Positions 1-63,365 of a stretch of 63,365 bases of DNA are shown piece after piece. The DNA is taken from positions 1 to 63,365 of the forward strand of contig NZ_JAPDPD010000026.1 in the NCBI RefSeq assembly GCF_026283965.1. The letters are read 5' to 3'. The DNA is from Dyella subtropica. GTDB lineage: Bacteria > Pseudomonadota > Gammaproteobacteria > Xanthomonadales > Rhodanobacteraceae. Under the pieces are notes generated by a model. It was not told where the DNA came from and ran no database searches. It saw only the letters and a list, made by a program, of their open reading frames with translations. The translations under genes and the position numbers were made by a program. The first letter of the stretch is position 1. The number at the start of each line of letters is the position of its first letter.

Positions 1-186
1 GACACGCACCGCGAGCCTTCTGGACATCACCCCGTCTTTTAGAATTCACATGTGCGGCCGCTGCGTCAGCTCGCCTGCGGCCCGGGCGCCGCCTCGACAG
101 ACAGCCAGTCTGCCTTCGCCGACGCCCGGGCCGCAGGCGAGCTGACACAGCGGTGACGCCTACGTTGAATAGACCAGAGCATCCTT
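1..186. repeat. Composite hairpin repeat, left end cut by window
   Basis: Bases 17-37 match, in reverse complement, the GATGTCCAGAAGG flank of the 40.5 kb copy. Bases 65-88 and 123-146 form a perfect 24-bp inverted repeat, extended with mismatches to 58-153. Inside is an apical hairpin at 98-112 (5-bp stem CAGAC/GTCTG, loop AGCCA). Bases 148-186 are the conserved right flank ending near the pirin stop codon. The first 16 bases probably belong to a second hairpin whose other arm lies outside the window. The strong stem may also end transcription of the leftward operon. Confidence 0.85.
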
Positions 187-1066
187 AACGCGTCGGCAAA
201 GGAATGAACTCCTCTTCGTCGCCCGCCACCTTGCCGTAACGCTGTTCTTGCCATTCGAGCTTCGCCTGCTCGATGCGCTCCTTACGGCTCGACACGAAGT
301 TCCACCACAAGTGTCGCTCGCCATCCAACGGTGCACCGCCGAACAGCATCACACGACTGGCTTTGGTGGCCTTGATCGGCGCCGAGGTCGCAGCGGTCTG
401 CGCCGCCGCCTGAGTAGGTGGAATGGTCAAGCCTTCCCAGCTCACTTCCCCTTCGATCACGCAGAGGCCGCGCTCAATGTGCTCCTCCGGCCAGGCCAGT
501 TCGGCACCAGCCTCCAATGTCGCCTCCATGAAAAACATCGGCGCGAAGACCTTCACGGGCGAACGCTCACCGTAGGCCGTACCGGCGATCAGCACCAGTT
601 CGGCGCTTGGCCGGCGAATACGTGGCAAGGCAATCGCGTCGTGGTGGTGGAATTCCGGCTCGACCTCTTCGTCATGCTGTGGCAAGGCCACCCATACCTG
701 CACACCGTGCATGCGCTGGCCGTCGCGTCGCTGCTCGGGCGGCGTACGCTCCGAATGCGCGATGCCACGTCCGGCGGTCATCCAGTTCACTTCGCCCGGC
801 CGGATGTCCGCTACGCTGCCGACGGTGTCGCGATGACGGATGGCGCCGTCGAACAACCACGTCACCGTGGCCAGGCCGATATGCGGATGCGGGCGCACGT
901 CCATGCCGCGTCCCGGTGCGAAATCCACCGGACCCATCAGGTCGAAGAACACAAACGGCCCTACGTGCCGGGCCAACAGCACCGGCAGCAACCGGCGCAC
1001 AGTGAAGCCATCGCCCAGATCGTGCAGGCGTCCTTCGATAAGTATCGGAGTCTGTTCCACAGCCAT
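185..1066 (-). CDS. Pirin family protein
   Basis: A 293-residue bicupin of the pirin family, usual length for the group. The N-terminal cupin keeps the metal-binding set: RPHPHIG gives His60 and His62, GIAHSE gives His104 and Glu106, matching the iron ligands of known pirins. Family members act as quercetin 2,3-dioxygenases or redox-sensing cofactors; the substrate here cannot be read from sequence. The ATG at 1066 is chosen because GAGGAG lies just upstream; a longer open frame runs back into namA. It starts 8 bases after the namA stop, so the two are very likely cotranscribed. The stop lies at the edge of the hairpin repeat. Confidence 0.93.
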   Translation of the reverse strand: MAVEQTPILIEGRLHDLGDGFTVRRLLPVLLARHVGPFVFFDLMGPVDFAPGRGMDVRPHPHIGLATVTWLFDGAIRHRDTVGSVADIRPGEVNWMTAGRGIAHSERTPPEQRRDGQRMHGVQVWVALPQHDEEVEPEFHHHDAIALPRIRRPSAELVLIAGTAYGERSPVKVFAPMFFMEATLEAGAELAWPEEHIERGLCVIEGEVSWEGLTIPPTQAAAQTAATSAPIKATKASRVMLFGGAPLDGERHLWWNFVSSRKERIEQAKLEWQEQRYGKVAGDEEEFIPLPTR

Positions 1067-1074
1067 GCTCCTCG

Positions 1075-2133
1075 TCACCAGGCCCGTTGATATTGCGCCG
1101 GCGCGTCGATCTTCGCACCCAGCTCTTGCGCCGCGCGGCGCGGAAAATACGGATCGCGAAGACTTTCGCGAGCGATCAGTACCACATCGGCATCTTCGTC
1201 GCTGACGATGTCCGCTGCATGGGCAGCCTCGGTAATCAGGCCCACCGCTCCCGTTGCGATGCCGGACTCGCGGCGAATCCGCGCCGCAAACGGCACCTGA
1301 TAGCCGGGGCTGAGCGGAATCTTCACGTGCGGAACCAGGCCACCGCTGGACACGTCGACGAGGTCGACGCCCAGCGCTTGCAGCTCGCGCGCCAGCCGCA
1401 CGCTTTGCTCGATGTCCCAGCCGCCTTCTCGCCAGTCGGTGGCGGAGATACGCAGCCATAGCGGCAGTTCCGTCGGCCACACCTCGCGCACCGCAACAAT
1501 GACTTCGCGCAGCAGGCGCGTGCGATTTTCGAAACTGCCACCGTAGGCGTCGTCGCGCCGGTTGCTCAGCGGAGAAAGGAATTGGTGCAGCAGATAGCCA
1601 TGGGCAGCATGCAGTTCAACCAGCTGGAATCCGGCGGCACGCGCCCGTTCGGCCGCCGCACGAAAATCCGCCACGACGGCGCATAGGCCGACGACGTCGA
1701 GTGCCTGCGGCGTATGCCAATCCTGGTCGAATGGAATGGCCGAAGGCCCAACGGTTGCCCATGCACCTTCTTCAACGCTCAACGGGCGGCCGCCCTCCCA
1801 CGGCCGATGCACGCTGGCCTTGCGACCTGCATGCCCCAGCTGCACACCAGGAATGGCGCCCTGCGCGGCGATGAAGCGCGTGATCGGTTGCCATGCATCG
1901 CGCTGGGCGTCATTCCACAAACCCACGTCCGATGGCGAGATACGGCCTTCGGGAGAAATAGCCGTAGCTTCGGCGATCACCACGGCCGCGCCACCCACGG
2001 CGCGACTGCCCAGGTGCACGAGATGCCAGTCGTCCGGAAGGCCATGGATGGCGGAGTACTGGCACATCGGGGCGATCACCAGGCGATTGCGCAAAGTCAG
2101 GCTGCGCTGGACCAGTGGAGCGTAGAGATTCAT
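1075..2133 (-). CDS. Old yellow enzyme, NADH:flavin oxidoreductase (NamA/YqjM type)
   Basis: A 352-residue TIM-barrel flavoprotein of the old yellow enzyme family. PMCQYS near residues 22-27 carries the Cys typical of the YqjM/NamA class, and ELHAAHGYLLHQFLSP with SNRRDDAYGG are the usual flavin and substrate-binding stretches. Such enzymes use NAD(P)H to reduce activated C=C bonds in the cytoplasm, often for detoxifying reactive alkenes. ATG at 2133 gives the family-typical start MNLYAPL. It follows the hydrolase gene by 52 bases and precedes pirin by 8, a likely three-gene unit. Confidence 0.93.
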   Translation of the reverse strand: MNLYAPLVQRSLTLRNRLVIAPMCQYSAIHGLPDDWHLVHLGSRAVGGAAVVIAEATAISPEGRISPSDVGLWNDAQRDAWQPITRFIAAQGAIPGVQLGHAGRKASVHRPWEGGRPLSVEEGAWATVGPSAIPFDQDWHTPQALDVVGLCAVVADFRAAAERARAAGFQLVELHAAHGYLLHQFLSPLSNRRDDAYGGSFENRTRLLREVIVAVREVWPTELPLWLRISATDWREGGWDIEQSVRLARELQALGVDLVDVSSGGLVPHVKIPLSPGYQVPFAARIRRESGIATGAVGLITEAAHAADIVSDEDADVVLIARESLRDPYFPRRAAQELGAKIDAPAQYQRAW

Positions 2134-2185
2134 TGTCGTGCCTTGAGGAAACTGCCACAGCAGATGCCGGCGCGGAGGCTTGGCT

Positions 2186-3100
2186 TCAAGAGGCCGCGGC
2201 GTTCCGCGCATCGATGGCGGCCGCTGACGCCATCCATCGAGCCACACGCACGGCGACCGCTTCCGGCGACTTCATCCAGGCAAAGTGATCGGCGGGTGTA
2301 CCCGCCAAATCCTGTGGACCCAACACGTGCAGCTCGCAACGTGCACCGGGCATCTTCGCCAGCAGCCAGGCCAACGAGGCTTCGGGCCCCAGCCAGTCGT
2401 CCCGCATGCGCAGGCCCAGCAAGGGCAAAGTCAGCTCGGATAAGCGCGCCTCGAAATCCACTGGCATATCGGCCGCCGCGTAACGCCCCGTACGTCCGCT
2501 GCGCGCCCAGTCGGCGATCACGCCACGCGCTTCATTCCCACCAAAACCGATGCGCCGCCCGGGCAAGTGACCCATCAAGCGGGCCAGCACGGGAGCCAGC
2601 ACGTAGGACAGGCCGATCAGGTAGCGCTGCCTGAAACGCCGCCAATAAGGAGAGCCGCTTGCCACGAGAACAATGCCGGAGTGATCGCGCGGGTGCAGGC
2701 TGGCATACAGCGTGGCGAGCTGCGCGCCGAGACTGTGCCCGCCTAGCCAGCAAGGCAACGTTCCGAAGCGCTCGCGTACGGCCTTCAGTCCGGCCGGCAG
2801 ATCGTCCTGCAACAGCTCGCGGTAAGCCCAATCGTTGTGCCGCCCGGCCCGCTGGTCACTCGATCCAATTCCACGCCATTCGTGCAGCGCCACGGCAACA
2901 CCGTGTGCAGCCAACGCCTCGGCCAGGGGCAGGTAGTGCTTTGCGGGAACGCCCATCGCCGGCAACCAGTACAGCAGGCCGGTGATTTCTCCGACCGGGG
3001 CCACCGTGAGCAACTCGGCCTTGGCACCGTCGGTCGCGGTGATCGGAAGTATGGACGATTCGAATGCCGGCGCCGCGATGGAAGGTTGTGGTTCTTGCAC
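2186..3100 (-). CDS. Alpha/beta hydrolase
   Basis: About 304 residues with an alpha/beta-hydrolase fold: GGHSLGAQ is the nucleophile elbow, and the C-terminal DHFAW may supply the catalytic His. It resembles the predicted COG4757-type hydrolases, with no assignable substrate. The start is uncertain: the frame stays open to 3211 but would cross the cold-shock terminator at 3173-3201. ATG 3166 sits directly at that terminator with no ribosome site, so GTG 3100 was chosen, also with a weak site. First gene of the leftward unit with namA and pirin. Confidence 0.82.
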   Translation of the reverse strand: MQEPQPSIAAPAFESSILPITATDGAKAELLTVAPVGEITGLLYWLPAMGVPAKHYLPLAEALAAHGVAVALHEWRGIGSSDQRAGRHNDWAYRELLQDDLPAGLKAVRERFGTLPCWLGGHSLGAQLATLYASLHPRDHSGIVLVASGSPYWRRFRQRYLIGLSYVLAPVLARLMGHLPGRRIGFGGNEARGVIADWARSGRTGRYAAADMPVDFEARLSELTLPLLGLRMRDDWLGPEASLAWLLAKMPGARCELHVLGPQDLAGTPADHFAWMKSPEAVAVRVARWMASAAAIDARNAAAS

Positions 3101-3172
3101 CCAGAGGACCCCGGTAAATAATGAAAGATCGCAGGCTAGCGAATGCACTCTATATGCGCCAAGCATGGATAC

Positions 3173-3201
3173 AAAAAAAGGCCGGCTTGCGCCGGCCTTT
3201 T
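3173..3201 (-). terminator. Rho-independent terminator after the first csp gene
   Basis: GGCCGGC/GCCGGCC stem around a short loop, flanked by seven A on one side and four T on the other. Read leftward it ends with a run of U, 20 bases after the stop of the csp gene at 3221; it could also work in the other direction. Confidence 0.88.
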
Positions 3202-3220
3202 CTCCAATCATGGCCTGAAT

Positions 3221-3430
3221 TCAGGCCGGCGCCACTTCATCGGCTTGCAGACCTTTCTGGCCCTGCACCACCTTGAAGCTCACCTTCTGCCCCTCTTTCA
3301 GGCTGCGAAAGCCTGACCCGGTGATAGCGCGGAAATGCACGAAGACATCGGGGCCACTTTCCCTGCTGATAAAGCCAAAACCTTTAGCGTCATTGAACCA
3401 TTTGACGGTGCCAATTTCACGTTCCGACAT
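3221..3430 (-). CDS. Cold-shock protein, CspA family
   Basis: A 69-residue single cold-shock domain with both nucleic-acid-binding motifs: KGFGFI (RNP1) and VFVHF (RNP2). Members bind single-stranded RNA and DNA and melt mRNA structure in the cytoplasm, as cold-shock or constitutive chaperones. ATG 3430 is preceded by GGAGTGA. It has its own terminator and is a close paralog of the csp gene at 3698. Both genes have similar upstream blocks, suggesting shared control. Confidence 0.96.
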
Positions 3431-3580
3431 GACTCACTCCGATCTGCTCGATACTGAGACAAGTCAGCCTCCCCTTTGGCCGACGGCTTACTGGGCATGC
3501 AGGGAATCGGGTGAGGCGATGCGGGACTCCTTGGAGCCTGGCACCGGGGCACGCACGTGACCTGGCAAACACAGTGGAAT
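3431..3580 (-). promoter_or_regulatory. csp 5' leader, copy 1
   Basis: Upstream of the csp start, three blocks recur in the same order as ahead of the second csp gene: a CACTGTGTTTGCC..GTCAC block (3557-3576), CATCGCCTCACCC (3509-3521) and CCAGTAAGCCG (3484-3494), given as read on the minus strand. Long structured leaders that change fold with temperature are known for CspA-type genes; that this one does so is inference. Confidence 0.55.
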
Positions 3581-3643
3581 TAGCATAACGGATTTTCTTA
3601 ATTGCAAGTAGCCGATGGCCTAGATAATGAAAACGGCCCATGC

Positions 3644-3676
3644 AATAAAAAAGCCAGGCATCGCTGCCTGGCTTCT
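3644..3676 (-). terminator. Rho-independent terminator after the second csp gene
   Basis: Stem AAGCCAGGCA/TGCCTGGCTT (3651-3674) followed leftward by a run of T. It lies 22 bases after the csp stop at 3698. Confidence 0.9.
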
Positions 3677-3697
3677 TTAAAACGCATTGACGGCGTA

Positions 3698-3907
3698 TCA
3701 GGCCGCCTGGACCTCATCGGCCTGCAGACCCTTCTGGCCCTGCACGACCTTGAAGCTGACCTTCTGGCCTTCTTGCAGGCTCTTGAAGCCATTGCCCTGG
3801 ATCGCGCGGAAATGCACGAAAACATCCGGGCCGTTGTCGCGGCTGATAAAGCCGAAACCCTTGGCGTCGTTGAACCACTTGACGATACCGATCTGACGAT
3901 CAGACAT
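3698..3907 (-). CDS. Cold-shock protein, CspA family (second copy)
   Basis: 69 residues, nearly identical in layout to the csp gene at 3221: starts [20 protein letters not shown], with RNP1 KGFGFI and RNP2 VFVHF. ATG 3907 with GGAGTG upstream is preferred over an upstream in-frame ATG at 3952 that lacks this spacing and would add an extension unlike the family. The two genes look like a local tandem duplication that kept the leader as well as the coding part. Role: RNA chaperone in the cytoplasm. Confidence 0.96.
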
Positions 3908-4070
3908 GTAAATCACTCCGTAAGGTTTTATGAGACTCGGCCCCTCCAACATGGAGCGGGCCGGCTTACTGGTGTGCTAGGAAACCCTAGGGGTGAGGCG
4001 ATGAAGCAGATCGCTGATCAGCGGCATCGGGTCACAAAACTCTGGTGACCCCGGCAAACACAGTGCCTAT
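3908..4070 (-). promoter_or_regulatory. csp 5' leader, copy 2
   Basis: Holds the same three ordered blocks as copy 1, at 4045-4065, 3991-4003 and 3961-3972, with different sequence between them. The remaining stretch to 4311 holds no gene or repeat that I can see and presumably carries the promoters of this gene and of the divergent lipoprotein gene. Confidence 0.55.
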
Positions 4071-4311
4071 ATGATAGCCGTATCAAACCCCTAAACGCTA
4101 ACCGATGCTTTTGTCAAACTGAACGAAACGGCGGCTCAGCGCTTAAAAAAACACGCTAGGGCTTTCGTCCATTTCACCCATTGACGGCATCGATTCAGCT
4201 TTTCTTTACATGTCGCGTTGTCTATTGCATCTGCGTCCTGTCACCCAACCATGCGACCGAATTCAGCGCGGGCACGCACGCGCTGGAACTTACCAGTCGA
4301 GGGGATTCACT

Positions 4312-4791
4312 ATGTCCAACCTACCTTCCCGCCTCGCCCTGATCGTTCTTTCCGGAGGACTCATCCTGGCCGGTTGCGCCGACAAGACCACCCGCCCAAC
4401 CACGCCCTCATCCACAACGACCGGCAGCACGCCGACCTCCACATCCCACGCCACACCCACCCGCCCCAGCTCCGCCACAGGCGGGAAATCGCGACCGGCC
4501 ACCCAGACCGCCGAACCAGCCCTGCCGGACAAGACCGGCATCCAGGCCTGCGACGACTACCTCGCGTCCTACATGGCTTGTCACCGCGCCGCGGGCATCT
4601 ATGCCCCCGACCAGATCGAGGGACGCTACGAGATGATGCGTGAAAGTCTGTTGAAGGATTCACTGAATCCTGACATCCGGCCGCAACTCGGCAGTCGTTG
4701 CACTTCGCTGGCCTCCCAACTGCACCAGGCCTTGCATGGCAAAGCCTGCGCCGCGGAGCCCGCTGCAGCGACCAGCAGCGGCAAGCCCTGA
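4312..4791 (+). CDS. Putative lipoprotein
   Basis: 159 residues. An N-terminal hydrophobic stretch ends in LILAGC, a good lipobox, so the mature protein should be anchored by Cys22. Residues about 24-70 are a Thr/Ser/Pro-rich linker, likely spanning toward the cell wall. The C-terminal part has four Cys (ACDDY, MACH, SRCTS, KACA) spaced as if for disulfides. I do not recognise a named family. ATG 4312 is chosen for the GAGGGG site; an upstream ATG at 4210 would bury the signal peptide. Confidence 0.82.
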   Translation: MSNLPSRLALIVLSGGLILAGCADKTTRPTTPSSTTTGSTPTSTSHATPTRPSSATGGKSRPATQTAEPALPDKTGIQACDDYLASYMACHRAAGIYAPDQIEGRYEMMRESLLKDSLNPDIRPQLGSRCTSLASQLHQALHGKACAAEPAAATSSGKP

Positions 4792-4819
4792 GCGGGGATG
4801 CCAGCGCCAAGTGGATCAG

Positions 4820-6124
4820 CTAACCCCGCCAGAGCGCCCGCAAAGCCGGCGCCATGCCTGAAGGCTGGCACCGGCCCAAGCGGATTTTCGGAGTGGCATG
4901 CCATTGCGCGCAGGCGACGACAGCCTCCGCCAAATCTTGAAGCAGGCCTGGCGTGGGCTCCTCCCCCGCTTCCAGATGCAGCGACTTCACTTCGAACACG
5001 CCCTCTACCCGATGCGCCTTGGCGTCGAGCCGCCCGATCAGGCGACCACGGTGCAGGATCGGCAGCACGTAGTAGCCGTAGCGACGTTTGGGCGCGGGCA
5101 CGTAGCACTCGATGGTGTACTCGAAGCCGAACATGGCCAGCACGCGGGCGCGATCCCATACCAGCGGATCGAACGGCGACAGCAACGTGGTATGCGTGGC
5201 CCGAAGGCGACCTTGCGCAGCTTGTTTCAGTAGATCGACATGGTCGGCATGGACATAGCCCGGCACCTTCCAGTCGCTTACGGACACTTTGAGCAATTCC
5301 CCGGAAGCCACCAGCGGGACAAGCTCCTGCTCGGTCACCGCGGGCTTCAATCGGTAGTAGTCGGCGATCCAACGCGCCTGAGTGATGCCCAAGGCACGCA
5401 CGCTATCGAGGATGAAGCGCTGGCGCAGAGCCGCATGCTCCAGCGTCGCCGGCTCGCCATCCAGTGGCGGATCGAGTCGCGCGATAACGTTCTCCGCCAG
5501 GTCGTACACACGCTGGAAGCGCTCACGGCGGGCCACCATCAATTCACCCAGCGCGAACCACGCCTCCAGCCAGCGCTTCTCTGGCTTCCACGACCACCAG
5601 CCGCTGACACCACGATCCTCGCGAGTGAAGTCCGCAGCGCGCACCGGGCCGGAATCGCGGATGCGTGCCAGCAGCCCGTCCATACCGTCGCGTTGATCGC
5701 GATGCATGCGCGCCGCATGGCGATGCGCCCAGTGCGTATCCCGTTGCCCACGCCATGCGCGGTGCCACGCATAATCGGAGGCTGTAACGAAACACGCTTC
5801 ATGCGCCCAGCATTCCGCCAGCTGTCCTTGCGCAAGCGCTTCGTCCAGCCACATCGGCTCGTAGTCACCCAGACGCGAATGAAGCACCAGGTACGGACTG
5901 CGAGCTACCACGTGGATGGTATCGATCTGCAGCAGACGCATGCGCGCGATCGCCTCCACCACGTCGGCACGACGCGCACGTTTGCGCGGTGCGCGCAGCA
6001 GGCCTTGTGCCGCCAACTGCAGGCGCTGTGCCTGCGCCAAGCTCAAGTGGGTCACCGCAGATGAAGAAAGCGACAACGAAGACAAAATTTTCACATCATC
6101 GGGGCGCAATGGTTGTGCAGGCAT
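4820..6124 (-). CDS. YcaQ-type winged-helix DNA glycosylase
   Basis: 434 residues, similar to the YcaQ/AlkX family, bacterial DNA glycosylases that unhook interstrand crosslinks and excise N-alkylated bases. The N-terminal part has the motif RLLQIDTIHVVARSPYLVL; the QxD pair in it is the catalytic motif of the family. The rest contains the winged-helix-like repeats and the basic KRRYGYYVLPIL strand. The start at 6124 has only a weak ribosome site, but no better in-frame start is near. It is a single gene divergent from the small exported protein at 6249. Confidence 0.88.
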   Translation of the reverse strand: MPAQPLRPDDVKILSSLSLSSSAVTHLSLAQAQRLQLAAQGLLRAPRKRARRADVVEAIARMRLLQIDTIHVVARSPYLVLHSRLGDYEPMWLDEALAQGQLAECWAHEACFVTASDYAWHRAWRGQRDTHWAHRHAARMHRDQRDGMDGLLARIRDSGPVRAADFTREDRGVSGWWSWKPEKRWLEAWFALGELMVARRERFQRVYDLAENVIARLDPPLDGEPATLEHAALRQRFILDSVRALGITQARWIADYYRLKPAVTEQELVPLVASGELLKVSVSDWKVPGYVHADHVDLLKQAAQGRLRATHTTLLSPFDPLVWDRARVLAMFGFEYTIECYVPAPKRRYGYYVLPILHRGRLIGRLDAKAHRVEGVFEVKSLHLEAGEEPTPGLLQDLAEAVVACAQWHATPKIRLGRCQPSGMAPALRALWRG

Positions 6125-6248
6125 TTACCAAGCCTTTGTTAGCGTGTGAGTGGCGCAGGAAGTGCTGTTGACCGGAACACTGCCGCAGCCCACTTTTGGT
6201 TCCTGCGCCCTTCCGTCCTCGAGCCAGTGATTCTGACATGGAGTATCG

Positions 6249-6659: not shown

Positions 6660-6675
6660 GCTTCCGGCACCTTTG

Positions 6676-7872: not shown

Positions 7873-7888
7873 GGCCGGCAATCCAACG

Positions 7889-8007
7889 AGGCCTGGTGCT
7901 AAGAGCCTGTTCAAAATCTCTATGCCGGCCTATATGGCGCGGTGCTGAGGGCGAGCAGTTCCATACAGAACCAGAGACTTTGAACAGGCTCTCAGCGCCA
8001 CCAGGCC
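7889..8007. repeat. Inverted-repeat element, MITE-like
   Basis: Arms 7889-7921 and 7972-8007 are imperfect inverted copies (core AGAGCCTGTTCAAA..TCTCT), enclosing about 50 bases that code for nothing. The right arm overlaps the last codons of the flavin monooxygenase gene. It may be a short non-autonomous element or a two-way terminator between convergent genes; no target duplication is evident. Confidence 0.6.
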
Positions 8008-20082: not shown

Positions 20083-20234
20083 GACACACCCCTGTTGGGA
20101 TCACAGCATCACGCTAGGCCCGGAGCATTGAATGCGGACTGAGCACACCGGCCTCGGCCAGCGGGCGTTTACCCGCCAGCCATATGGGATGCTCTGATCC
20201 ATTCTGCGTAGGCTGCACCGGCAGGAACGAAACG

Positions 20235-22761: not shown

Positions 22762-22768
22762 CACCCTT

Positions 22769-22920
22769 GTAGGAGCCCACCCTGTGCGCGACAAACCGGC
22801 AGGACTGCCGGTTTGCACGGCGGCTAGCCGCCCGAAGGGCGAGGGCCATGGATGGCCCGAGTGAAAGCACTGCGTAGCAGTGCCGCTCTACAGCTGGTCG
22901 CCCACAGGGTGGGCTCCTAC
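22769..22920. repeat. GTAG-type REP pair (BIME-like)
   Basis: Starts with GTAGGAGCCCACCCTGTGCG and ends with the inverted GGTGGGCTCCTAC, with a CCGGCAGGACTGCCGG palindrome and a GGGCCATGGATGGCCC palindrome between them. The same order is found at 50592-50763. REP sequences of this kind are moved by RAYT transposases encoded elsewhere. Confidence 0.9.
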
Positions 22921-22927
22921 AAGGCGC

Positions 22928-25114: not shown

Positions 25115-25382
25115 AGAGCCTGCCCTCCCAGTCTGCATGGCCCGCGCCGGGAGCCGTTTGCTCGCAGGCCAAGGAAGAACGAGGGCGTGTACGTCCGTAC
25201 ACAACTGAGTGATGACGCCGGCGTGCGGGCAAACGGACCCGGCCCGAAGGGTTGAGTTGCTGTGGGCGCCACGCGGCGGTGCGCGGCTTGGCCTGACAGC
25301 CAGCCAGGCACTGCGCCACGCCCCACCACCTGGCGCCCACAGCAACTCAACGCGGGCTATGCAGACTGGAAGGGCCGGCTCT
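25115..25382. repeat. Composite hairpin repeat with two stem-loops
   Basis: Outer arms 25115-25146 and 25351-25382 are inverted copies with three mismatches. Inside are hairpin 1 (CCGTTTGCTCGCA, 25154-25166, with 25224-25236) and hairpin 2, whose arms 25251-25271 and 25331-25351 are a perfect 21-bp inverted repeat. The loop of hairpin 2 carries GCGCGGCTTG and GCGCCACGC and an apical hairpin at 25293-25307 with loop AGCCA, as in the copies at 40.5 kb and the window end. It fills the gap between divergent genes. Confidence 0.88.
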
Positions 25383-25984: not shown

Positions 25985-26400
25985 AGCAGGACCTGATGGC
26001 CTCCCGATGAGCGAGGTTTTGCTTTTGCTCTTGGGGTCCCCTGTGAAGCGGTGAGGGCTGGACGATCAGGCCCCGCAGGGGGCATCGACAGGACGTCGAT
26101 GCCTTTTCGACACGACAGGGACGTCGTGTCGAAAAGCCCGGCCAGACCTCACGTACCCGAAGGGCGCGGAACCGGGGTGGCCTCTCTTTTGGTTACTTTT
26201 CTCTGGCCAAACAGAGAAAAGTGACTCGGACCGCGGCAGCGGTTCGAAAGCCCGCGGCAGGCGAGCCAGGTCACGACAACGCGAACATCAAACGGCAACG
26301 CCACTGGACCCCGGCCTACGCCGGGGCGACGAAGTAGAAGCGGTGTCGCGAGCACCCGCCCCTCACCCCAACTCTCTCCCCGGCGGGGAGAGGGAGAACT
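25985..26400. repeat. Long dispersed repeat, copy 1
   Basis: Contains the block GGGCTGGACGATCAGGCCCC, a variable hairpin (GGCATCGACAGGACGTCGATGCC), a TTTTCGACACGACAGGGACG palindrome, the block CTCTTTTGGTTACTTTTCTC with GAGAAAAGTGACTCGGACCG, a CCCCGGCCTACGCCGGGG hairpin and a CCCTCACCCC/GGGGAGAGGG motif. The same blocks, in part rearranged, recur at 30.4-30.8 kb and partly at 57.1 kb. No coding sequence is seen. Confidence 0.85.
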
Positions 26401-28035: not shown

Positions 28036-28036
28036 C

Positions 28037-28078
28037 GGCAGTCCTGCCGGCTTGTCGCGCACAGGGTGCGCTCCTACA
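28037..28078. repeat. Single GTAG-type REP with adjacent palindrome
   Basis: GGCAGTCCTGCC palindrome followed by the inverted REP TCGCGCACAGGGTGCGCTCC-TACA, immediately after the osmC stop. It lies between convergent genes and could help end transcription. Confidence 0.85.
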
Positions 28079-30439: not shown

Positions 30440-30842
30440 AACACCCGCCCCTCACCCCAACCCTCTCCCCGAAGGGGAGAGGGAGCAAGAACAAAAGCGA
30501 TGCGTAAGCGAGCCCGACCTTGCTCTTCGGGTCCCCTGTGCAGCGGTGAGGGCTGGACGATGAGGCCCCGAAGGGGGCGCAGGCATGGATGCCTGCGCCT
30601 TTTCGACACGACAGGGACGTCGTGTCGAAAAGCCCGGCCAGCCCTCACGGACTCGCAGGCGAAGCCGGAGAGCGCGAAACCGGGGTGGCCTCTCTTTTGG
30701 TTACTTTTCTCTGGCCAATCAGAGAAAAGTGACTCGGACCGCGGCAGCGGTTCGAAAGCCCGCGGCAGGCGAGCCCGAGCACGCAGTCGCGACAACCGAG
30801 CGATAACGCCACTAGATTCCGGCCTACGCCGGAATGACGAGA
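30440..30842. repeat. Long dispersed repeat, copy 2
   Basis: Carries the same blocks as 25985-26400: CCCTCACCCC..GGGGAGAGGG, GGGCTGGACGATGAGGCCCC, a hairpin with a different stem (GCGCAGGCATGGATGCCTGC), the TTTTCGACACGACAGGGACG palindrome, CTCTTTTGGTTACTTTTCTC and a TTCCGGCCTACGCCGGAA hairpin. The order of the CCCTCACCCC block differs from copy 1. Nothing coding is seen. Confidence 0.85.
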
Positions 30843-40461: not shown

Positions 40462-40539
40462 CGTCGGCTCCACCGGTTTGAAAGCGCCCAACTATCGCGG
40501 CAAAACCGGGGCAACACCAGCGCTGAAAGTCACAACGCC

Positions 40540-40743
40540 AGGGATGCCCTGATCTATTCAACGTAGGCGGACACACAGGGCTGCCCCAGCATTTTGAATC
40601 TCAAGGACGGGGTGATGTCCAGAAGGCGCCCAGCGCGTGCCGCGCGGCTTGAAAAGGCAGCCAGCCTTCCCTGTGCCACGCAACACGCGCTGGGCGCCTT
40701 CTGGACATCATGCCGCCTACGTTGAATAGATCAGGGCATCCCT
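40540..40743. repeat. Nested hairpin element, complete copy
   Basis: Two perfect nested inverted repeats: outer arms of 31 bases (40540-40570 and 40713-40743) and inner arms of 27 bases (40613-40639 and 40684-40710). The inner loop (40640-40683) carries GCGCGGCTTG and an apical hairpin AAGGC-AGCCA-GCCTT at 40654-40668. The outer arms hold CTATTCAACGTAGGCG, also found at both window ends. It lies between the divergent beta-lactamase-fold and PAP2 genes. No transposase or coding sequence. Confidence 0.93.
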
Positions 40744-40804
40744 GGACTCGCCGCGCTCAAATACCCATCATCCGCGTCTTTCAAAGCCGTTTGACGAGCA
40801 TACG

Positions 40805-43653: not shown

Positions 43654-43756
43654 CTCGTCATTCCGGCCTGGGCCGGAATGACGAGTGGTAGCCGCGTTGA
43701 ACCGAGCACCCGCCCCTCACCCCACCCCTCTCCCCGAAAGGGAGAGGGAGCTAAGG
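43654..43756. repeat. Dispersed repeat with perfect hairpin
   Basis: A perfect inverted repeat CTCGTCATTCCGGCC/GGCCGGAATGACGAG (43654-43685) followed by the CACCCGCCCCTCACCCC and CTCTCCCCGAAAGGGAGAGGG motif also found at 26.36, 30.45 and 58.1 kb. It may also serve as a terminator between convergent genes. Confidence 0.85.
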
Positions 43757-46016: not shown

Positions 46017-46023
46017 AGCCCCT

Positions 46024-46098
46024 GTAGGAGCCCACCCTGTGGGCGACCTTGCCTCATCAGCACTTCGCCCCCCTATCGCGCACAGGGTTCGCTCCTAC
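46024..46098. repeat. Short GTAG-type REP pair
   Basis: GTAGGAGCCCACCCTGTGGG at the left and inverted GCACAGGGTTCGCTCCTAC at the right, with only about 30 bases between. The right REP supplies the TAG stop codon of the leftward gene at 46095. Confidence 0.88.
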
Positions 46099-50569: not shown

Positions 50570-50591
50570 TCCCGCCCCATGGCCCACCGCC

Positions 50592-50763
50592 GTAGGAGCG
50601 CACCCTGTGCGCGACAAACCGGCAGGACTGCCGGTTTGCACGGCGTAAGCCGCCCGTAGGGCTGGGGCCATGGATGGCCCGAGTGAAACGGCCCGCAAGG
50701 GCCGCGCTCCGCGCAACATCAGCCCTGCTGCGCAGGGCCTTCGCGCACAGGGTGCGCTCCTAC
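50592..50763. repeat. GTAG-type REP pair (BIME-like)
   Basis: Starts GTAGGAGCGCACCCTGTGCG, then CCGGCAGGACTGCCGG and GGGCCATGGATGGCCC palindromes, and ends with inverted GGTGCGCTCCTAC. Same order as 22769-22920. Between the outward-facing flanks it fills most of the 358-base gap; nothing else coding is seen. Confidence 0.9.
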
Positions 50764-56954: not shown

Positions 56955-57084
56955 GGCCGTTCCTTCGAGTGATGGTTAGAGGCTGGCGTAGAAGTCGAAG
57001 TGAGCATGATGCGTCCATGCGACAGTAGACCAGTCGTCTATGAAAAGGACAAAAGAAAGGGGTCGATGCAGGCCACTTCAACGC

Positions 57085-57330
57085 GACCTGGCGGGACCTG
57101 ATGGCCTTCCGATGCGCGCGGTTTTGCTTTGGCTCTTGCCCCTCCTGTGCAGCGATGAAGGCTGGACGATCAGGCCCCGCAGGGGGACCGCCATGGATGG
57201 CGGTTCCTTTTCGACAACATCGAAGCGATACGCCACTGCCCCCCCGGCCTGCACCGGGGTGACGAAGTAGAAACGTTATCGCGAGCACCCGCTCCTCACC
57301 TCAGTCCTCTCCCCCGTACACAAATCGGTA
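57085..57330. repeat. Dispersed repeat, partial copy
   Basis: GGACCTGATGGCCTTCCGATG, GGCTGGACGATCAGGCCCCG, then a palindrome around GCCATGGATGGC and a CGGCCTGCACCGGGG hairpin, followed by CACCCGCTCCTCACC. It resembles 25985-26400 but is shorter and lacks the CTCTTTTGGTTACTTTTCTC block. Nothing coding seen. Confidence 0.75.
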
Positions 57331-57376
57331 ACCGGGGGAGACGAGGCAGGGGTAAACACCTTGAAAGGGGTGGCTC

Positions 57377-57718: not shown

Positions 57719-57815
57719 CGATGGAACCTATTGGGATAAGCGGATCGCCGATTATAGCGACCCGTTTCGTGACGGGCTTGGCTACCATCGCCATCCCACT
57801 CCTTCCTTGTCGACG

Positions 57816-58088
57816 ATGACCGAATCAGCCAATGAGCGTCCGTGGTGTCTTTACTTGATCGAGTGCCGCGATGGCTCGTTCTATGCGGGCATCACCAACG
57901 ATCTGGCCGCCCGCTACGAAGCACACGTCGCGGGTCGCGGCGCCCGCTATACACGCTCGCATCCGCCATTGCGGCTGATCGGTTCCCGGCCATATGAAAA
58001 CCGTGCCGCTGCGTCGCGCGCGGAATGGGAGATCAAGCAGCTGCCGAAGCAGCGGAAGGTGGCCTATCTAGAGAAAGGGGATGCGTAA
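57816..58088 (+). CDS. GIY-YIG nuclease family protein
   Basis: 90 residues. CLYLIECRDGSFYAGITNDL has the Tyr/Leu and the Tyr/Ala-Gly parts of the GIY-YIG motif, and HVAGRGARYTRSHPPLRL and EWEIKQLPKQRK match the YhbQ-like group with Arg and Glu. A small stand-alone nuclease fold; the target is unknown. No clear ribosome site before ATG 57816. Confidence 0.92.
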   Translation: MTESANERPWCLYLIECRDGSFYAGITNDLAARYEAHVAGRGARYTRSHPPLRLIGSRPYENRAAASRAEWEIKQLPKQRKVAYLEKGDA

Positions 58089-58103
58089 GAGGCGGTGGCT
58101 CGA

Positions 58104-58248
58104 GCACCCGCCCCCTCACCCTGCCCTCTCCTCGCTCCTCCACGCGGGGAGAGCACAAGGATGTGCTCGGCTCTGAGGAGCGAGGAAAGCCGGGGCCATC
58201 CATGGCCCCTCCCCGCGTGCCCCGACGGGGAGAGGGTTCAAGCAAAAG
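58104..58248. repeat. Dispersed repeat with CCCTCACCC/GGGGAGAG motif
   Basis: CACCCGCCCCCTCACCC motif, a CCTCGCTCCTC/GAGGAGCGAGG inverted pair and GGGGCCATCCATGGCCCC. The end abuts the YVTN gene stop. Related to 43654-43756 and the two long copies. Confidence 0.75.
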
Positions 58249-58249
58249 T

Positions 58250-59443
58250 TCAGCGCATGATGCCGGTGTGGCCCAGCGAGAAGCGCCCAGGTTGCGGCCA
58301 CACAGCAAGCCCATGCGGCTCGGCGCCTACCTTGATCTTGCGCACGGCGCCCGTGGTGGTGTCGAAGGCATAGACCAGATCGTCGTAGCGGCCCGATAGC
58401 CATAGCGTCTTGCCATCGGCACTGACGTTGCCCATGTCCGGACTGCCGCCGCCGGGGATCGGCCAGTTGGCGACGACCGTGCGCGAGGCGAAGTCGATCA
58501 CCGACACACTGCCCTTGTTCACGCCCTTCTTGTTGCCGCGGCTCTCGCCATGCACGTGGTTGGAACCGCGATTGGCCACATACAGCTTGGTGCCATCGCG
58601 GCTGGGATACAGGCCGTGCGTGCCAATGCCGGTCTTGATGAAGCCGATCTTGGTGAAGCTGGCACCATCCACCACGTAGACACCGTCCGCCATCATGTCG
58701 GCCACGTAGAAAATCTTGCCGTCTGGGGATACGCGGATGTCCTGCGGCATGCCCTTCTTCTCGAGCTCGAGATAGCCCAGCACTTTGCGGTTGACCATAT
58801 CGATCTTGACCAGCTTGCCGCCGAACTCGCAGGTGAAGATGGCGTACGTGCCGTCGATGGCGAAGTCAGCGTGGTTGATGCCCTTGCACTCCGGCGCCTG
58901 CAGGCTCGAGTGCAATTGCATGGTGTGCGCATCGCGGAAATCGAGCCGCGCGTGCGCCTCAGCCACCACAATCGCCTCCTTGCCATCAGGCGTGAAGTAC
59001 ATGTTGTATGGATCGTCGACTTCGATCGCCTTGCCCGGCTTACCGGTCTTCGGATCGATCGGCGTCAGGCTGCCATCCGACTTGCCCTCGGCATTGTTTG
59101 TGACCCACAAGGTCTTCAGATCCCACGAAGGCACCACGTGCTGCGGGCTGCGCCCCACCGGGAACGTATCCACCACTTTGTACGTCGCCGGATCGATCAC
59201 CGACACCGCGTTGGAACGCAGATTGGGCACGTAGATGCGCTCAAGCGCCCCATTCGTCGCGGGGCTGAAATTGTTGAGCCGTGCTTCGCTGTACATGTTG
59301 TCCGGGTTCAACACGGCAGGCATGCCGGGCACCGTCTTGATGGCGGGCGACGCTGCCAGCGCGGCACCGGTGAAGCAAAGTCCTGCCAACGCGGCACTCG
59401 CCAGGGAAGCAAGCCGCGGCGTGCAACGGGATGATGAAATCAT
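58250..59443 (-). CDS. Exported YVTN beta-propeller protein
   Basis: 397 residues with a signal peptide (cleavage near AALAAS). Seven or so blades of the YVTN type, e.g. RIYVPNLRSNAVSVIDPAT, KTLWVTNNAEG and KLYVANRGSN. Related propellers assist or form quinoprotein dehydrogenases or surface proteins. It starts 52 bases after an exported creatininase gene, so both are likely one operon. ATG 59443 has a weak site. Confidence 0.88.
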   Translation of the reverse strand: MISSSRCTPRLASLASAALAGLCFTGAALAASPAIKTVPGMPAVLNPDNMYSEARLNNFSPATNGALERIYVPNLRSNAVSVIDPATYKVVDTFPVGRSPQHVVPSWDLKTLWVTNNAEGKSDGSLTPIDPKTGKPGKAIEVDDPYNMYFTPDGKEAIVVAEAHARLDFRDAHTMQLHSSLQAPECKGINHADFAIDGTYAIFTCEFGGKLVKIDMVNRKVLGYLELEKKGMPQDIRVSPDGKIFYVADMMADGVYVVDGASFTKIGFIKTGIGTHGLYPSRDGTKLYVANRGSNHVHGESRGNKKGVNKGSVSVIDFASRTVVANWPIPGGGSPDMGNVSADGKTLWLSGRYDDLVYAFDTTTGAVRKIKVGAEPHGLAVWPQPGRFSLGHTGIMR

Positions 59444-59495
59444 GGGGAATTCCGTTCTCGAAAATTTGGGGGTGAAATCTAAGGGCTGCGGGAAA

Positions 59496-60311
59496 TCAGC
59501 GGCCAGCCGTGTCTTTGCGGATCGCATCCACGGTCTGCGCAACGATAGCATCGATGCCCGCCTGCCCAAGCGCCGCACTGGAGCGACGCGGATCGCCGCC
59601 ATACACGCCGTCCGCGGCACCTAGTTTCGGCCCAGCCTTGAGCCGATCCAGCCGGACCATTTGCGGAGCCACCGCAAGCTGCAATGACGTATCCGCCAGG
59701 CCCGCATGCGTGCCGATCTCATCGTCGCGGAAGCCGCGCTGCCGCAGCAGCTGCGCGTATCCATCCGAACTGGCCTGGTAATACTCGGGCGGCGCAAGCG
59801 CATGAACGGGCTTGCCGCCCCATGTCTTGTTGAGCTGCGCCACCACGTGCTTCACGTCGTTCTGGTAACCGCCATGGTCGCCGAGAAACACCACGTTCTT
59901 GAAGCCATGCACCGCGAAACTCTGCGCGGCCGACGTCAATATCTGCTCAAAGGCGGCATCGGGAATGGTGATGGTGCCGGGAAACTTCATATGGCTTTGC
60001 GGCGGCGCATAAGCGCCTTCCGGCACGTAGGCCATCACCGGAGCGACCAACGCATTGCCAAGCTGCCCGGCGATCTTCTGCGCCAGCCAGGCCGCGCGGG
60101 CGTTGTGCTTGCCCACCGCGATGCCAGGGCCGCTCTGCTCGGTGCCGCCGATGGGAATGATGATGGTGGTCTTGCCGGCCTGGACCTGGTCGCGCACCTC
60201 GGTCCAAGTAAGTTCTTCCAGCAACACGGTCTTGGGCGCCTGCGCAAAACCTGCCTGCGTGGCGACAAGCAGAAGGGCGAACGCGAAAGCTCGCCGTAGC
60301 GGGTGAATCAT
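59496..60311 (-). CDS. Exported creatininase family protein
   Basis: 271 residues with a signal peptide (cleavage near GFAQA). VLLEELTWTEVRDQVQ and IIPIGGTEQSGPG and GDHGGYQND with the Glu, His and Asp of the metal site match creatininase-type amidohydrolases. Most such enzymes are cytoplasmic; a signal peptide is unusual. Close relatives trim peptides in mycofactocin making. It is followed by the YVTN propeller gene. Confidence 0.87.
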   Translation of the reverse strand: MIHPLRRAFAFALLLVATQAGFAQAPKTVLLEELTWTEVRDQVQAGKTTIIIPIGGTEQSGPGIAVGKHNARAAWLAQKIAGQLGNALVAPVMAYVPEGAYAPPQSHMKFPGTITIPDAAFEQILTSAAQSFAVHGFKNVVFLGDHGGYQNDVKHVVAQLNKTWGGKPVHALAPPEYYQASSDGYAQLLRQRGFRDDEIGTHAGLADTSLQLAVAPQMVRLDRLKAGPKLGAADGVYGGDPRRSSAALGQAGIDAIVAQTVDAIRKDTAGR

Positions 60312-60439
60312 CTCGATAAGCTCGCAGGAATAAGTTGCTGATCGTTGGCGGAGAGGGGTTTCTTCGCCGTGAAGGCAGACATCCTACTCAACGATGCCAG
60401 CTTCGTGCATGCCCGAAACATGAACATCACGCCACACAG

Positions 60440-60670
60440 CCCTAGCCCCTCCCGTTGCAAGCAAGGGAGGGAGTGGTTGTCGCAACCCGTGCTCTTTGCC
60501 CCTCTCCCTGCTTGCGACGCAAAGCTAGTCCCGTGGAACAGGGGAGGCCGGGAGGGGGTAAGCCCTTGAGGCAACGGCGCAAACTTGCGGGGCTCACCCC
60601 CACCCCAGCCCTCCCCTGCTACGACCGAAGTAGTCCCTGTGGGACACGCAAGGGAGGGAGCAAGTTGTCG
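60440..60670. repeat. Repeat-rich non-coding stretch
   Basis: Contains CCCTAGCCCCTCCCGTTGCA, AGGGAGGGAGTGGTTGTCGC and AGGGAGGGAGCAAGTTGTCG, with an inverted part between. The two GGGAGGGAG stretches sit on either side of CACCCCCACCCCAGCCC. It makes up most of the 475-base gap between 60311 and 60787. No coding evidence. Confidence 0.7.
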
Positions 60671-60786
60671 CAACGTGTGTCGTGGTAGGGCACCCAAGTG
60701 GCCTCACACGTCGCCCCCCAAGTGGCTCTTCCCCCTATTCCGAATCAGGCGCACCCTCCACCCGCCCTTTCACCGAGCATGCCCCC

Positions 60787-61407
60787 ATGAGCCAGCCCAT
60801 CTCCGCCACACGCCGAAAGGTCCTGCTAGATGGACTGACCTGCGCCAGCGCCATGAGTCTCTTGCCCATCGCCAGTGTCCTGGCGTCCACCGTCCCCCAA
60901 ACACCCTCGGAGAACTGGGCCCCACCTGGCGCCACGCCGCCGACGGGCGATATCCACGACTTCGATTTCTTCGTCGGCCGCTGGAATTTCGTCAACCGGC
61001 GCCTGAAGAAGCGCTGGGTCGGCAGCAACGACTGGGAAACCTTTCCCGCCTCGCTCGTTTGCGAAAGCCGCCTGGGCGGCGTGGTGAATATCGACGACGG
61101 CATCTTCCCCACCAAGGGCTGGTCAGGGATGACCGTGCGCGTCTTCGATCGCGCGAAACGCCAATGGTCCCTCTACTGGATCAACAGCAGCACCGGCGTG
61201 CTGTTTCCGCCGGTCGTAGGTGGGTTCACTGGTGACCATGGCGTGTTCTACGGCGACGACACGGACGACGGCCGGCCGGTCAAGGTCCGGTTCCTGTGGA
61301 CCCGGCTGGGGCCGGATGCGGCGCATTGGGAGCAGGCGTTTTCCCAGGATGGCGGCAAGCATTGGGAGACCAACTGGTTTATCGAGCACACCCGCGCCAA
61401 AAGCTAG
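60787..61407 (+). CDS. Tat-exported protein, DUF1579-like
   Basis: 206 residues. TRRKVLLDGLTCASAMSLLP with Arg-Arg suggests a twin-arginine signal, so it may fold before export. The mature part has DFDFFVGRWNFVNRRLKKRW, like DUF1579 beta-barrel proteins. Function unknown. ATG 60787 has no strong site, but the signal peptide fixes the start. The MocR gene begins 57 bases later. Confidence 0.8.
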   Translation: MSQPISATRRKVLLDGLTCASAMSLLPIASVLASTVPQTPSENWAPPGATPPTGDIHDFDFFVGRWNFVNRRLKKRWVGSNDWETFPASLVCESRLGGVVNIDDGIFPTKGWSGMTVRVFDRAKRQWSLYWINSSTGVLFPPVVGGFTGDHGVFYGDDTDDGRPVKVRFLWTRLGPDAAHWEQAFSQDGGKHWETNWFIEHTRAKS

Positions 61408-61464
61408 AACTCCATCGCCAATCGGGACTAGGCGGATGATGAAGACGGGCCCTAACATCCGCGG

Positions 61465-62955
61465 ATGGCCAAACATGCCGGCTCCGTGTTCTCCGTGGAT
61501 GTGACTGGTCTCGACGCAGGACCGGGTCAGCCTGCCTATGCTCGCATTTGCGAGCGCATCCGCACGGCCATTGCCAGCGGCGCGCTTGCGCTGAATGCCC
61601 GCCTGCCTTCCAGCCGTACCCTCGCGAAAGATCTCGGCGTGGCGAGAAACACGGTCGATTGGGCGCTGGGGCAGCTGGTTGCCGATGGCTATATCATCCG
61701 GCGGCGCGGTGCCGGCAGTTTCGTGGCCCCGCGCCTTCCCGAACGCGATGCGTTGCCGCGAGCCCCTAAGCGCATCGCCGCCACCCAACCCATCGAAGCC
61801 GAACGACGTTTATCCCAGCGCGCGAAAGCCCTGCAAAGCTACCCCGGCCACTACCAGCCGGCCACGGCCATTCCATTCACGCCGTCGCTTCCACCCATCG
61901 ATCTGTTCCCGCGAGACGTGTGGAATCGCCTGCTGATGCGCGAGGCCAGCCGCTCTGGCAACGACTACTGGGCCTACGGCGCCAGCAACGGACTGCCCGC
62001 CCTGCGTGAAGCCATCGCTGCGCACGCGTCTGCGATGCGCGCCACCTGCTGCTCGCCCGAACAAGTCATCGTGGTCACCAGCACGCAGCAAGCCGTCGAA
62101 CTCGCCGGCAAGGCACTCGCCGATCCGGGCGACCGTGCCTGGGTGGAGACGCCGGGCTACCAACCCGTACAACACTGCCTGCGGGCGGCCGGGCTGCAGG
62201 TCGTGCACGTGCCGGTCGACAAGCACGGTCTGGACGTAAACGCCGGCCGACAGCGGGAGCCGCATGCGCGCCTGGCCTACGTCACACCAGCGCATCAATA
62301 CCCCATGGGCTACGAGATGTCGCTCGCGCGCCGGAGAGCGCTGCTCGACTGGGCACAGCAAGAAGACAGCTACATCATCGAAGACGACTACGACGGCGAC
62401 TACCGCTACGAAGGCCGCCCCATAGCGTCGCTGCAGGCCATGGACGGAAGCGGTCGCGTCATCTACATCGGCAGCTTCAACAAGATCCTGTTTCCGGGCC
62501 TGCGCATCGCCTACGCCATCGTGCCCGAGCCACTCATCCAGGCCTTCGTCGACGCCAAACACATCGCCGACGGCCACACCGCCTTGCTCACCCAAGGCGT
62601 GCTCGCGGCCTTTATCAACGAAGGACACTTGGCGAACCATCTGCGCAAAACCCGCGCCATCTACGACGAACGGCGACGGGCCTTTCTGGAAGAGGCGAAA
62701 GCGCTGGCCGAGGTGCTGGATTTCGGACCGGCGACGGCAGGCATGCATGTCACCGCGCTATTCAAGAACGGCTGCACGGATGACCGGGCCGTGGCGGCCG
62801 AATGCGCCCGCGCGGGTGTAGATGTCCATCCGCTCTCCAAGTACGGCGCCATGGAACGCGGCGGCCTCGTATTGGGATTCGCGGGAGCCACACGCCACGC
62901 CGCGCGATCGGGTCTTGAGATCGTGCGGCGCGCCATGGTCTCAGTCAGCGGCTAG
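61465..62955 (+). CDS. MocR/PdxR-type GntR regulator with aminotransferase domain
   Basis: 496 residues. Winged helix-turn-helix at about 20-90 (LPSSRTLAKDLGVARNTVDW), then a fold type I aminotransferase domain that binds PLP; GSFNKILFPGLRI holds the Lys. Such regulators sense PLP or an amino acid product and often control the neighbour transport or synthesis gene. The gene upstream on the same strand is the Tat protein gene, so the target is unknown. ATG 61465 is weakly supported but family-like. Confidence 0.93.
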   Translation: MAKHAGSVFSVDVTGLDAGPGQPAYARICERIRTAIASGALALNARLPSSRTLAKDLGVARNTVDWALGQLVADGYIIRRRGAGSFVAPRLPERDALPRAPKRIAATQPIEAERRLSQRAKALQSYPGHYQPATAIPFTPSLPPIDLFPRDVWNRLLMREASRSGNDYWAYGASNGLPALREAIAAHASAMRATCCSPEQVIVVTSTQQAVELAGKALADPGDRAWVETPGYQPVQHCLRAAGLQVVHVPVDKHGLDVNAGRQREPHARLAYVTPAHQYPMGYEMSLARRRALLDWAQQEDSYIIEDDYDGDYRYEGRPIASLQAMDGSGRVIYIGSFNKILFPGLRIAYAIVPEPLIQAFVDAKHIADGHTALLTQGVLAAFINEGHLANHLRKTRAIYDERRRAFLEEAKALAEVLDFGPATAGMHVTALFKNGCTDDRAVAAECARAGVDVHPLSKYGAMERGGLVLGFAGATRHAARSGLEIVRRAMVSVSG

Positions 62956-62974
62956 AGCGAAAAGCAGGCCCCAC

Positions 62975-63079
62975 CTACTTGCTGTTGCGCTTCTTTTCCT
63001 CTTTGGCTGCCTTCTTTTCCTTCATGGTCTTAGCGGGCTTTTTCTTCTCGCCCTTCTTTGCATCCATACCCTTGCTCAT
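62975..63079 (-). CDS. 34-residue lysine-rich small protein
   Basis: A short frame starting MSKGMDAKKGEKKKPAKTMK and ending in KKRNSK, stop TAG at 62975. It is strongly basic, about 40 percent Lys. GGGAGAAG lies just before ATG 63079. Similar small Lys-rich proteins recur in gammaproteobacteria without a known function; a nucleic-acid or membrane contact is possible. Too short for the usual length cut-off. Confidence 0.75.
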   Translation of the reverse strand: MSKGMDAKKGEKKKPAKTMKEKKAAKEEKKRNSK

Positions 63080-63123
63080 CTTGCTTCTCCCATCGTGGTC
63101 GCTGTGCCACCAGTTTGCGCTTT

Positions 63124-63365
63124 AAGGACCCTCTGGTCTATTCCACGCAGGCGTCACCGCTGCTGTTTGCGCGCAGATCGCCGTTGCGCTGCCGACAGCA
63201 GACTGGACGTCTGTCGAGGTAGCGTGACGGTGAGCTGCGCGCAAACAGCAACGGCCCTACTCATGTTTTTATAGATGACAGGGTGATATCCAGAAAGCGC
63301 GCTGCCGCTGCCGCGCGGCTTGACCTGACCACCAGTCAGCCGCTTCGCCACGCGGCAGCGGCAGC
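63124..63365. repeat. Composite hairpin repeat, right end cut by window
   Basis: Left flank 63124-63162 matches, inverted, 148-186 at the other window end (four mismatches in 39). Hairpin 1 arms are 63161-63176 and 63235-63250 (16 bp, perfect) with apical hairpin 63199-63213. The linker has GATGACAGGGTGATATCCAG. Hairpin 2 arms are 63301-63315 and 63351-63365 with apical hairpin 63325-63339 (CTGAC-CACCA-GTCAG). The window ends in the last arm. Confidence 0.88.

Follow-up and report, generated by a model that had tools for sequence, protein, structure and literature searches.

The capped hairpins of the 63,365-nt stretch of Dyella subtropica DNA analysed here (the window, which is one entire contig of a 46-contig assembly) fall into two related families of mobile elements that carry no genes, designated type I (~285 bp) and type II (~266 bp). 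A full copy consists of an outer paired stem of ~30 bp around a first hairpin (hairpin 1, which is hairpin A in type I and hairpin X in type II), a linker and a capped second hairpin (hairpin 2, or hairpin B); most stem positions, those of the terminal stem included, turn over in sequence. At slightly less than an even chance, we favour the reading that the elements are a non-autonomous foldback family of miniature inverted-repeat transposable elements (MITEs) of Lysobacterales, the core of which is kept as folded strands, with an RNA device as the most likely account of that core.

The order of parts in type I is outer stem (29 counted pairs, columns 1-34), hairpin A, a CCCC...GGGG linker, hairpin B and the returning outer stem; in type II it is a 30-bp outer stem, hairpin X, a mini-hairpin CCC-NNN-GGG, hairpin B and the returning outer stem. 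The hairpins are ~100 bp long, with foot sequences GGGGTGA (type I) and GGGTTG (type II). The tip of hairpin B reads GCGCGGCTTG, a stem, mostly RGCCA, a stem and GCGCCACGC, and hairpin A bears on the other strand the related tip CTCGA-CAGAC-AGCCA-GTCTG-CCTTCGCC; therefore the type I hairpins are opposed copies of one tip module, and the cap loop that a first-pass annotation of this DNA took to be common to the hairpins takes for the most part the form RGCCA in hairpin B, read on one strand, and is inverted in hairpin A. Hairpin 1 of type II bears a different conserved tip (X). A loop-to-foot pseudoknot (AGCC with GGCT) was rejected because the loops GTCCA and CACCA do not keep it. The type II mini-hairpin has exact CCC/GGG arms in 73 of 82 unique copies, and its triloop is GNA or the complement TNC in 72 of these 73, against 54 of 173 CCCNNNGGG sites outside the elements, counts to which no true p-value attaches because the copies are related. 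It has the form of a UNCG-type RNA tetraloop on one strand and of a GNA triloop on the other; both are very stable, and GNA triloops make very stable DNA mini-hairpins. The mini-hairpin also replaces the long linker in a few type I copies (L199, L202 and L224), which ties the two types together.

Covariation of the arms, called strong in the first-pass annotation, lies far above shuffled and slid controls. In 53 type II elements, 96.2% of alignment cells are paired and both sides vary in 65 of 90 pairs, giving a covariation score of 0.528 against 0.162 for shuffled alignments and at most 0.085 for alignments slid by 1-3 columns; in 40 type I elements, 97.3% of cells pair and 71 of 94 pairs change on both sides, giving 0.446 against 0.143 and at most 0.073. 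The type II set comprises the 53 unique elements of 67 parsed, excluding those with ends missed by the end motif or with a length outside 255-272 bp, and the type I set excludes copies with a length outside 260-305 bp or lacking GTCACCG. Structures were derived from the same alignments on which they were tested, which favours them over the slid versions; despite this circularity, the effect size leaves little doubt that the covariation is genuine. It is insufficient by itself to prove the recognition of a folded strand that the first-pass annotation drew from it, because template switching during replication can homogenise arms, leaving inverted tips, and such tips are present.

An entirely mutational origin of the covariation, in which the arms fold back during replication and template switching copies one arm onto the other with no selection on a folded strand, we consider unlikely. 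PMC8604942 describes how template switching homogenises arms and inverts spacers, and several features of the elements fit this: the tip of hairpin A is flipped in L104, L224 and L069, hairpin B is flipped in place in L223 against 51 normal copies, the triloops occur in reverse-complement pairs (GAA/TTC, GGA/TCC, GTA/TAC and GCA/TGC), and the outer stem covaries too, though its arms are more than 190 bp apart. A script for flips of the hairpin A tip scored 18 flipped tips against 60 normal, 16 of the 18 being spacers read on the other strand and two being true flips (L069 and L224); L104 was missed by the script and found by reading. The counts of direct double and single changes, taken as tree events, speak neither way: they are 330:170 in type II and 239:148 in type I, ratios of 1.94 and 1.61, compared with 102:61, or 1.67, in RNase P RNA, so that the count neither proves nor excludes homogenisation of the arms and an excess of double changes was rejected as proof of template switching. 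Double changes in the elements are slightly more clustered than in random draws (69 against 59.4 and 31 against 22.4), as is also the case in RNase P RNA (19 against 13.4). This control comprises 30 loci from 45 genomes with a match, all 30 of which were kept, and its structure is an RNAalifold prediction rather than the known fold. From the few inverted tips, template switching seems to act as well.

The polarity of wobble pairs bears more directly on the folded strand. Counted as events by parsimony on trees from the same alignments, for which p-values are rough, G·T outnumbers A·C by 47:6 in hairpin A and 33:13 in hairpin X (80:19 together), whereas hairpin B gives 24:40, leaning to G·T on the other strand (Fisher p 2e-8 for A and X against B). 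The outer stems are near neutral overall (45:35; type II, 25:26), and the RNase P RNA control of 30 relatives gives 37:7. Raw isolated mismatches (83:9 in A, 59:19 in X and 36:222 in B) are more polarised than tree events, in part owing to A·C pairs that sit at conserved positions of hairpin B. Our reading of the opposite polarity is that folded strands are under selection, a different strand in each of the two hairpins. Template switching predicts neither this opposition nor tips conserved across genera. The polarity backs selection on a folded strand, to which extent the proposal of the first-pass annotation is supported.

The elements are numerous. The type I end GGATGCTCTGATCTATTCNACGTA has 73 matches with up to three mismatches in the D. 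subtropica genome, against none for the reversed pattern, and the hairpin X motif has 20, against one for the control, although two of the 20 (L151 and L154) seemed on inspection to be chance matches. A hand count, with reversed self-matches removed, put type II matches of 100 nt or more at 26 places in the same genome. A 285-bp type I query matched 21 of 61 genomes, namely 20 of the 37 genomes of the family, its own included, and one weakly outside it (E 6e-4). The exact cap pattern, searched over genomes of named species, gave 99 stretches; among the 80 matches listed, it is found in Rhodanobacter, Dyella, Pseudoxanthomonas, Luteimonas, Stenotrophomonas, Fulvimonas and some metagenome bins, and in two Xanthomonas strains that lack a species name. 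Blastocatellia and Solirubrobacterales bins with the cap pattern (L181 and L186, without arms) look like chance, and one Eremiobacterota bin is a candidate on the cap pattern. Distant blastn searches of plasmid and phage collections gave no match to type I or type II; one viral contig (L255) carries the cap pattern. Short elements of 57-73 bp (L057, L062, L071, L082, L084, L090, L098 and L103) retain both type I ends but little of the interior. An insertion (GCGCACGCGGGGAGAGTCCATGGATGGACTC..GAGGAGCGAGGAAGG) inside hairpin A is common to the type I copies L058, L061 and L081, and nearly the same piece sits in the linker of the type II copies L184 and L250.

The elements have inserted at new sites, as the suggestion of a mobile hairpin in the first-pass annotation implied, although the hairpins themselves are parts of larger elements (~266-285 bp) that have a paired outer stem. 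All five other genomes of the genus lack the window's type II element at the orthologous place, upstream of a YajQ-family gene, and one of them (G001) offers a clean empty site. For the type I element at 40.6 kb, the orthologous place in G001 holds no copy, and the other genomes are too different there to judge. Over its first 18 bases, the type I end matches two ~1.2-kb elements of relatives, L260 and L262, at 17 positions at one end and 15 at the other, and both of these encode IS5-family transposases (NF033581, over the cut-off), that of L262 with a stop in frame. Type I thus shares its terminal inverted repeats, to this degree, with IS5-family elements, as a MITE does with its parent, and the gene family linked to it through its ends is that of the IS5-family DDE transposases. 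L260 is flanked by a direct duplication of CTAA; IS5-family elements duplicate a 4-bp target, YTAR. The ends of L262 have no such hairpins. For type II, no convincing gene-bearing element with such ends was found in 401 loci (1.73 Mb), the best being two weak pairs of ends at 15 of 20 bases, in L195 and L243.

Together, these comparisons suggest a mechanism in which an IS5-family transposase acting in trans would have moved type I, and selection on folded single strands of the core, a different strand for each of its two hairpins, would have kept it. Since wobble pairs are tolerated on the top strand in hairpin 1 and seemingly on the bottom strand in hairpin 2, an orientation-independent device at the RNA level is our first choice: a transcript entering from either flank would meet first a long hairpin in its wobble-tolerant sense, and the core might act as an orientation-independent structured RNA that limits or processes, for example, read-through from either flank. 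Judged from sequence, such an RNA-level device is the most likely function, and the main rival is recognition of single-stranded DNA at each end. We also put forward, tentatively and as a rather doubtful generalisation, that the core is a mobile orientation-independent device of opposed hairpins (with the UNCG/GNA mini-hairpin in type II) that is selected across Lysobacterales genera and recognised, as RNA or as single-stranded DNA, by a factor of the host or of the element.

We think it fairly improbable that what folds is single-stranded DNA, with either end of the element showing a hairpin on its own strand to a candidate enzyme (HUH/Y1 or other) as the REP-associated tyrosine transposase (RAYT) meets repetitive extragenic palindromes (REPs). 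The inverted arrangement of the two hairpins is what would be expected of two element ends, the GNA triloops are of the kind known to make very stable DNA mini-hairpins, and GGGGTGAC, which precedes hairpin B of type I, fits in part of the copies the motif GGGGWSAS, which De Gregorio 2013 (PMC3733652) describes in long, partly self-complementary terminal repeats flanking tyrosine transposase genes. Against it stands the absence of any Y1_Tnp match in the D. subtropica genome despite dozens of copies of the elements, where five of 14 control genomes were positive; Y1_Tnp occurs in 42 of the 61 genomes. Moreover, 30 Y1 loci contain no hairpin A and a single X-like match at six mismatches (L351), and their cap-like matches at 3-5 mismatches are noise (11 of 30, compared with 10 of 30 control transposase loci). 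A tyrosine transposase or HUH gene tracking with the hairpins, for which the first-pass annotation proposed to look, was thus not found in the tests made, which covered the genome itself, the set of 61 genomes and these 30 loci.

Several observations weigh against the favoured reading of an IS5-moved family with a core selected as an RNA device. On the side of mobility, PF01609, an IS5-type transposase domain, is found in none of the six genomes of the genus, so that type I looks like the product of past activity or of a mover of a kind outside this search, and PF05598 has no match in the D. subtropica genome. The flanks of L262 are unequal (TTAG/CTAG). Identical 4-mers flank 14 of 56 type I copies, against 6.3 in shuffled pairs; 13 of the 14 are palindromic, and duplication is not conclusive. 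The identical pairs are CTAG/CTAG (seven), TTAA/TTAA (six) and CTTG/CTTG (one), the rest being unequal, and CTAG is never paired with TTAA; the CTTG/CTTG of L107 is the sole direct, non-palindromic pair, and the flanks of L104 and of the 40.6-kb copy are inverted. The comparison of type II flanks showed no target duplication. On the side of the core, the wobble bias of hairpin B at variable positions (p 0.06) is no more than suggestive when taken alone, and the outer stem of type I, for which the model predicts neutrality, leans towards G·T (20:9). Type I copies show no preference for the 3' ends of genes (eight divergent, seven tandem, three convergent and two at an edge); type II copies are placed six tandem, three convergent, two divergent and four at an edge, and the other gaps of more than 60 bp in the window are 17 tandem, 13 divergent and 12 convergent, all as scored with a crude gene caller, which puts some genes in the wrong place and which gave the type II element of the window as convergent, with distant neighbours, though it lies just upstream of the YajQ-family gene. 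Finally, no T-run follows hairpin B, where the alignments read CAACGCGG.. or CATGCCG...

If the folded strand is selected, the elements constitute a large natural set of covarying mobile structures, with dozens of copies in one genome and members in several genera, which could lead to the protein or process that reads the hairpins, and which could separate selection for structure from homogenisation of arms by template switching, a confounder of covariation tests on palindromic repeats.

All five caps in four elements noted in the first-pass annotation were located within the window: CAGAC/AGCCA/GTCTG (loop 103-107), AAGGC/AGCCA/GCCTT (loop 40659-40663), CTGAC/CACCA/GTCAG (loop 63330-63334), a minus-strand GTCCA (loop 63204-63208) and AGCCA at 25298-25302. 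The cap stem is fully self-complementary in the first four, and at 25298 it is CTGAC/GCCAG, with one A·C mismatch. An inverted-repeat search of the window confirmed the long arms at 58-153, 25251-25351, 40608-40715 and 63157-63254. On its own, the combination of a 5-bp stem and an NNCCA loop is common (a scan with loose flanks also returned 27783 and 37612 in the window, apparently by chance), and the diagnostic signal is the long palindrome together with its flanking motif and copy number.

The complete type II element (25117-25382, plus strand; 266 bp, boundary uncertain by one base) lies upstream of the YajQ-family gene (assigned by NCBIfam) and comprises hairpin X (25146-25243) with a conserved internal loop AAGGAAGAACGAGGG / ACTGAGTGATGACG, the mini-hairpin CCC-GAA-GGG (25243-25251), which has a GNA triloop on this strand and the UNCG form on the other, and hairpin B (25251-25351), the loop of which is the AGCCA at 25298-25302. 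Type I is represented by an element on the minus strand cut by the contig start (1-184), with a terminal inverted repeat at 161-184, hairpin A arms at 58-91 and 120-153, a cap at 98-112, the linker and the start of hairpin B; by a plus-strand element (40538-40745) without most of hairpin A, with a perfect 33-bp terminal inverted repeat and hairpin B at 40608-40715; and by a plus-strand element cut by the contig end (63126-63365), with a terminal repeat at 63126-63149, hairpin A at 63157-63254 and the start of hairpin B with its CACCA cap loop. A lone sequence resembling the type I end with two mismatches (20187-20210, plus strand) has no partner end within 600 bp. At 7894-8000, a 28-nt inverted repeat with GAGCCTGTTCAAAATCTCT / AGAGACTTTGAACAGGCTC has type II-like ends but neither of the two hairpins and may be a deletion derivative. 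Both ends of the window are thus contig ends inside hairpins, and by hand count at least 24 of the 92 contig ends of the assembly are no more than ~300 nt away from one of the elements; the placement of hairpins at the window ends is therefore an assembly effect, and hairpins at window or contig ends should here be read with that caution. Since contigs of this assembly break inside the hairpins, counts of the family from draft genomes are probably too low.

That the elements belong to an already described family (GTAG or CGTC REPs, integron attC sites, intrinsic terminators or a known RNA family) is very improbable; the first-pass annotation, too, knew of no named family of this form. They are small, intergenic, palindromic and numerous, as members of such families are, and the window holds other REP-like repeats. 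At the gathering threshold, however, Rfam 15 has no match to the window elements or to 10 element-bearing loci, and a permissive Rfam scan of the element at 25 kb gave nine matches below the gathering score, seven of them to microRNA families. According to PMC3733652, REPs are palindromes of 20-40 bp with an unpaired GTAG (or CGTC) tag at their foot; our hairpins have neither tag there and are ~100 bp long. An ordinary intrinsic terminator was rejected for lack of both a T-run after hairpin B and a preference for gene 3' ends. attC sites are marked by the R'/R'' core GTTRRRY in a cassette array with an integrase; no such core was noticed on reading the elements, for which no dedicated search was made.

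Elsewhere in the window, 30525-30669 matches the Rfam TwoAYGGAY RNA (RF01731; 44.5 bits, compared with a gathering score of 43), and this region has partial near-copies at 26025-26163 and 57129-57187. A separate palindromic repeat family at 22762-22924, 28036-28078, 46019-46098 and 50585-50763 (GTAGGAGCGCACCCTGTGCGCGAC and variants) resembles GTAG-tagged REPs and lies in a genome without a Y1_Tnp match. Short palindromes at 30816-30841 and 43654-43679 (ATTCCGGCCTACGCCGGAATGACGAG and an inverted near-copy) resemble CGTC-tagged REPs.

A search conducted mostly outside the subscription literature found no published account of elements of this kind in the genera concerned. Among described elements, the closest are IS5-family MITEs, REPINs and the terminal repeats that flank tyrosine transposase genes in Stenotrophomonas maltophilia, the last compared by description. 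Type I resembles IS5 MITEs in its ends (compared with L260 and L262), its YTAR-like flanks, its shortness and its location mostly between genes, but its interior consists of two long opposed hairpins with conserved tips, which are lacking at the ends of L262, the stems of our elements, the terminal one included, covary strongly, and the type II ends match no insertion sequence examined. REPINs and bacterial interspersed mosaic elements, which are paired REPs moved by RAYT, likewise unite two inverted hairpins in one small mobile unit, whereas our elements lack a GTAG foot, have hairpins about three times longer and an outer stem, and show neither Y1_Tnp in the genome nor association with Y1 loci. 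The terminal inverted repeats of "TIRtrons", as described in PMC3733652, are most numerous in S. maltophilia, a Lysobacterales species, and share with our elements long, partly self-complementary terminal repeats and, with part of the type I copies, a GGGGWSAS-like motif; unlike TIRtrons, our elements have no tyrosine transposase beside them in the loci examined. RNase P RNA, which served as the yardstick, is similar in its ratio of double to single changes and in a preference for G·T like that of hairpins A and X; our elements differ from it in being mobile and present in many copies, and in that the preferred strand switches between the two hairpins.

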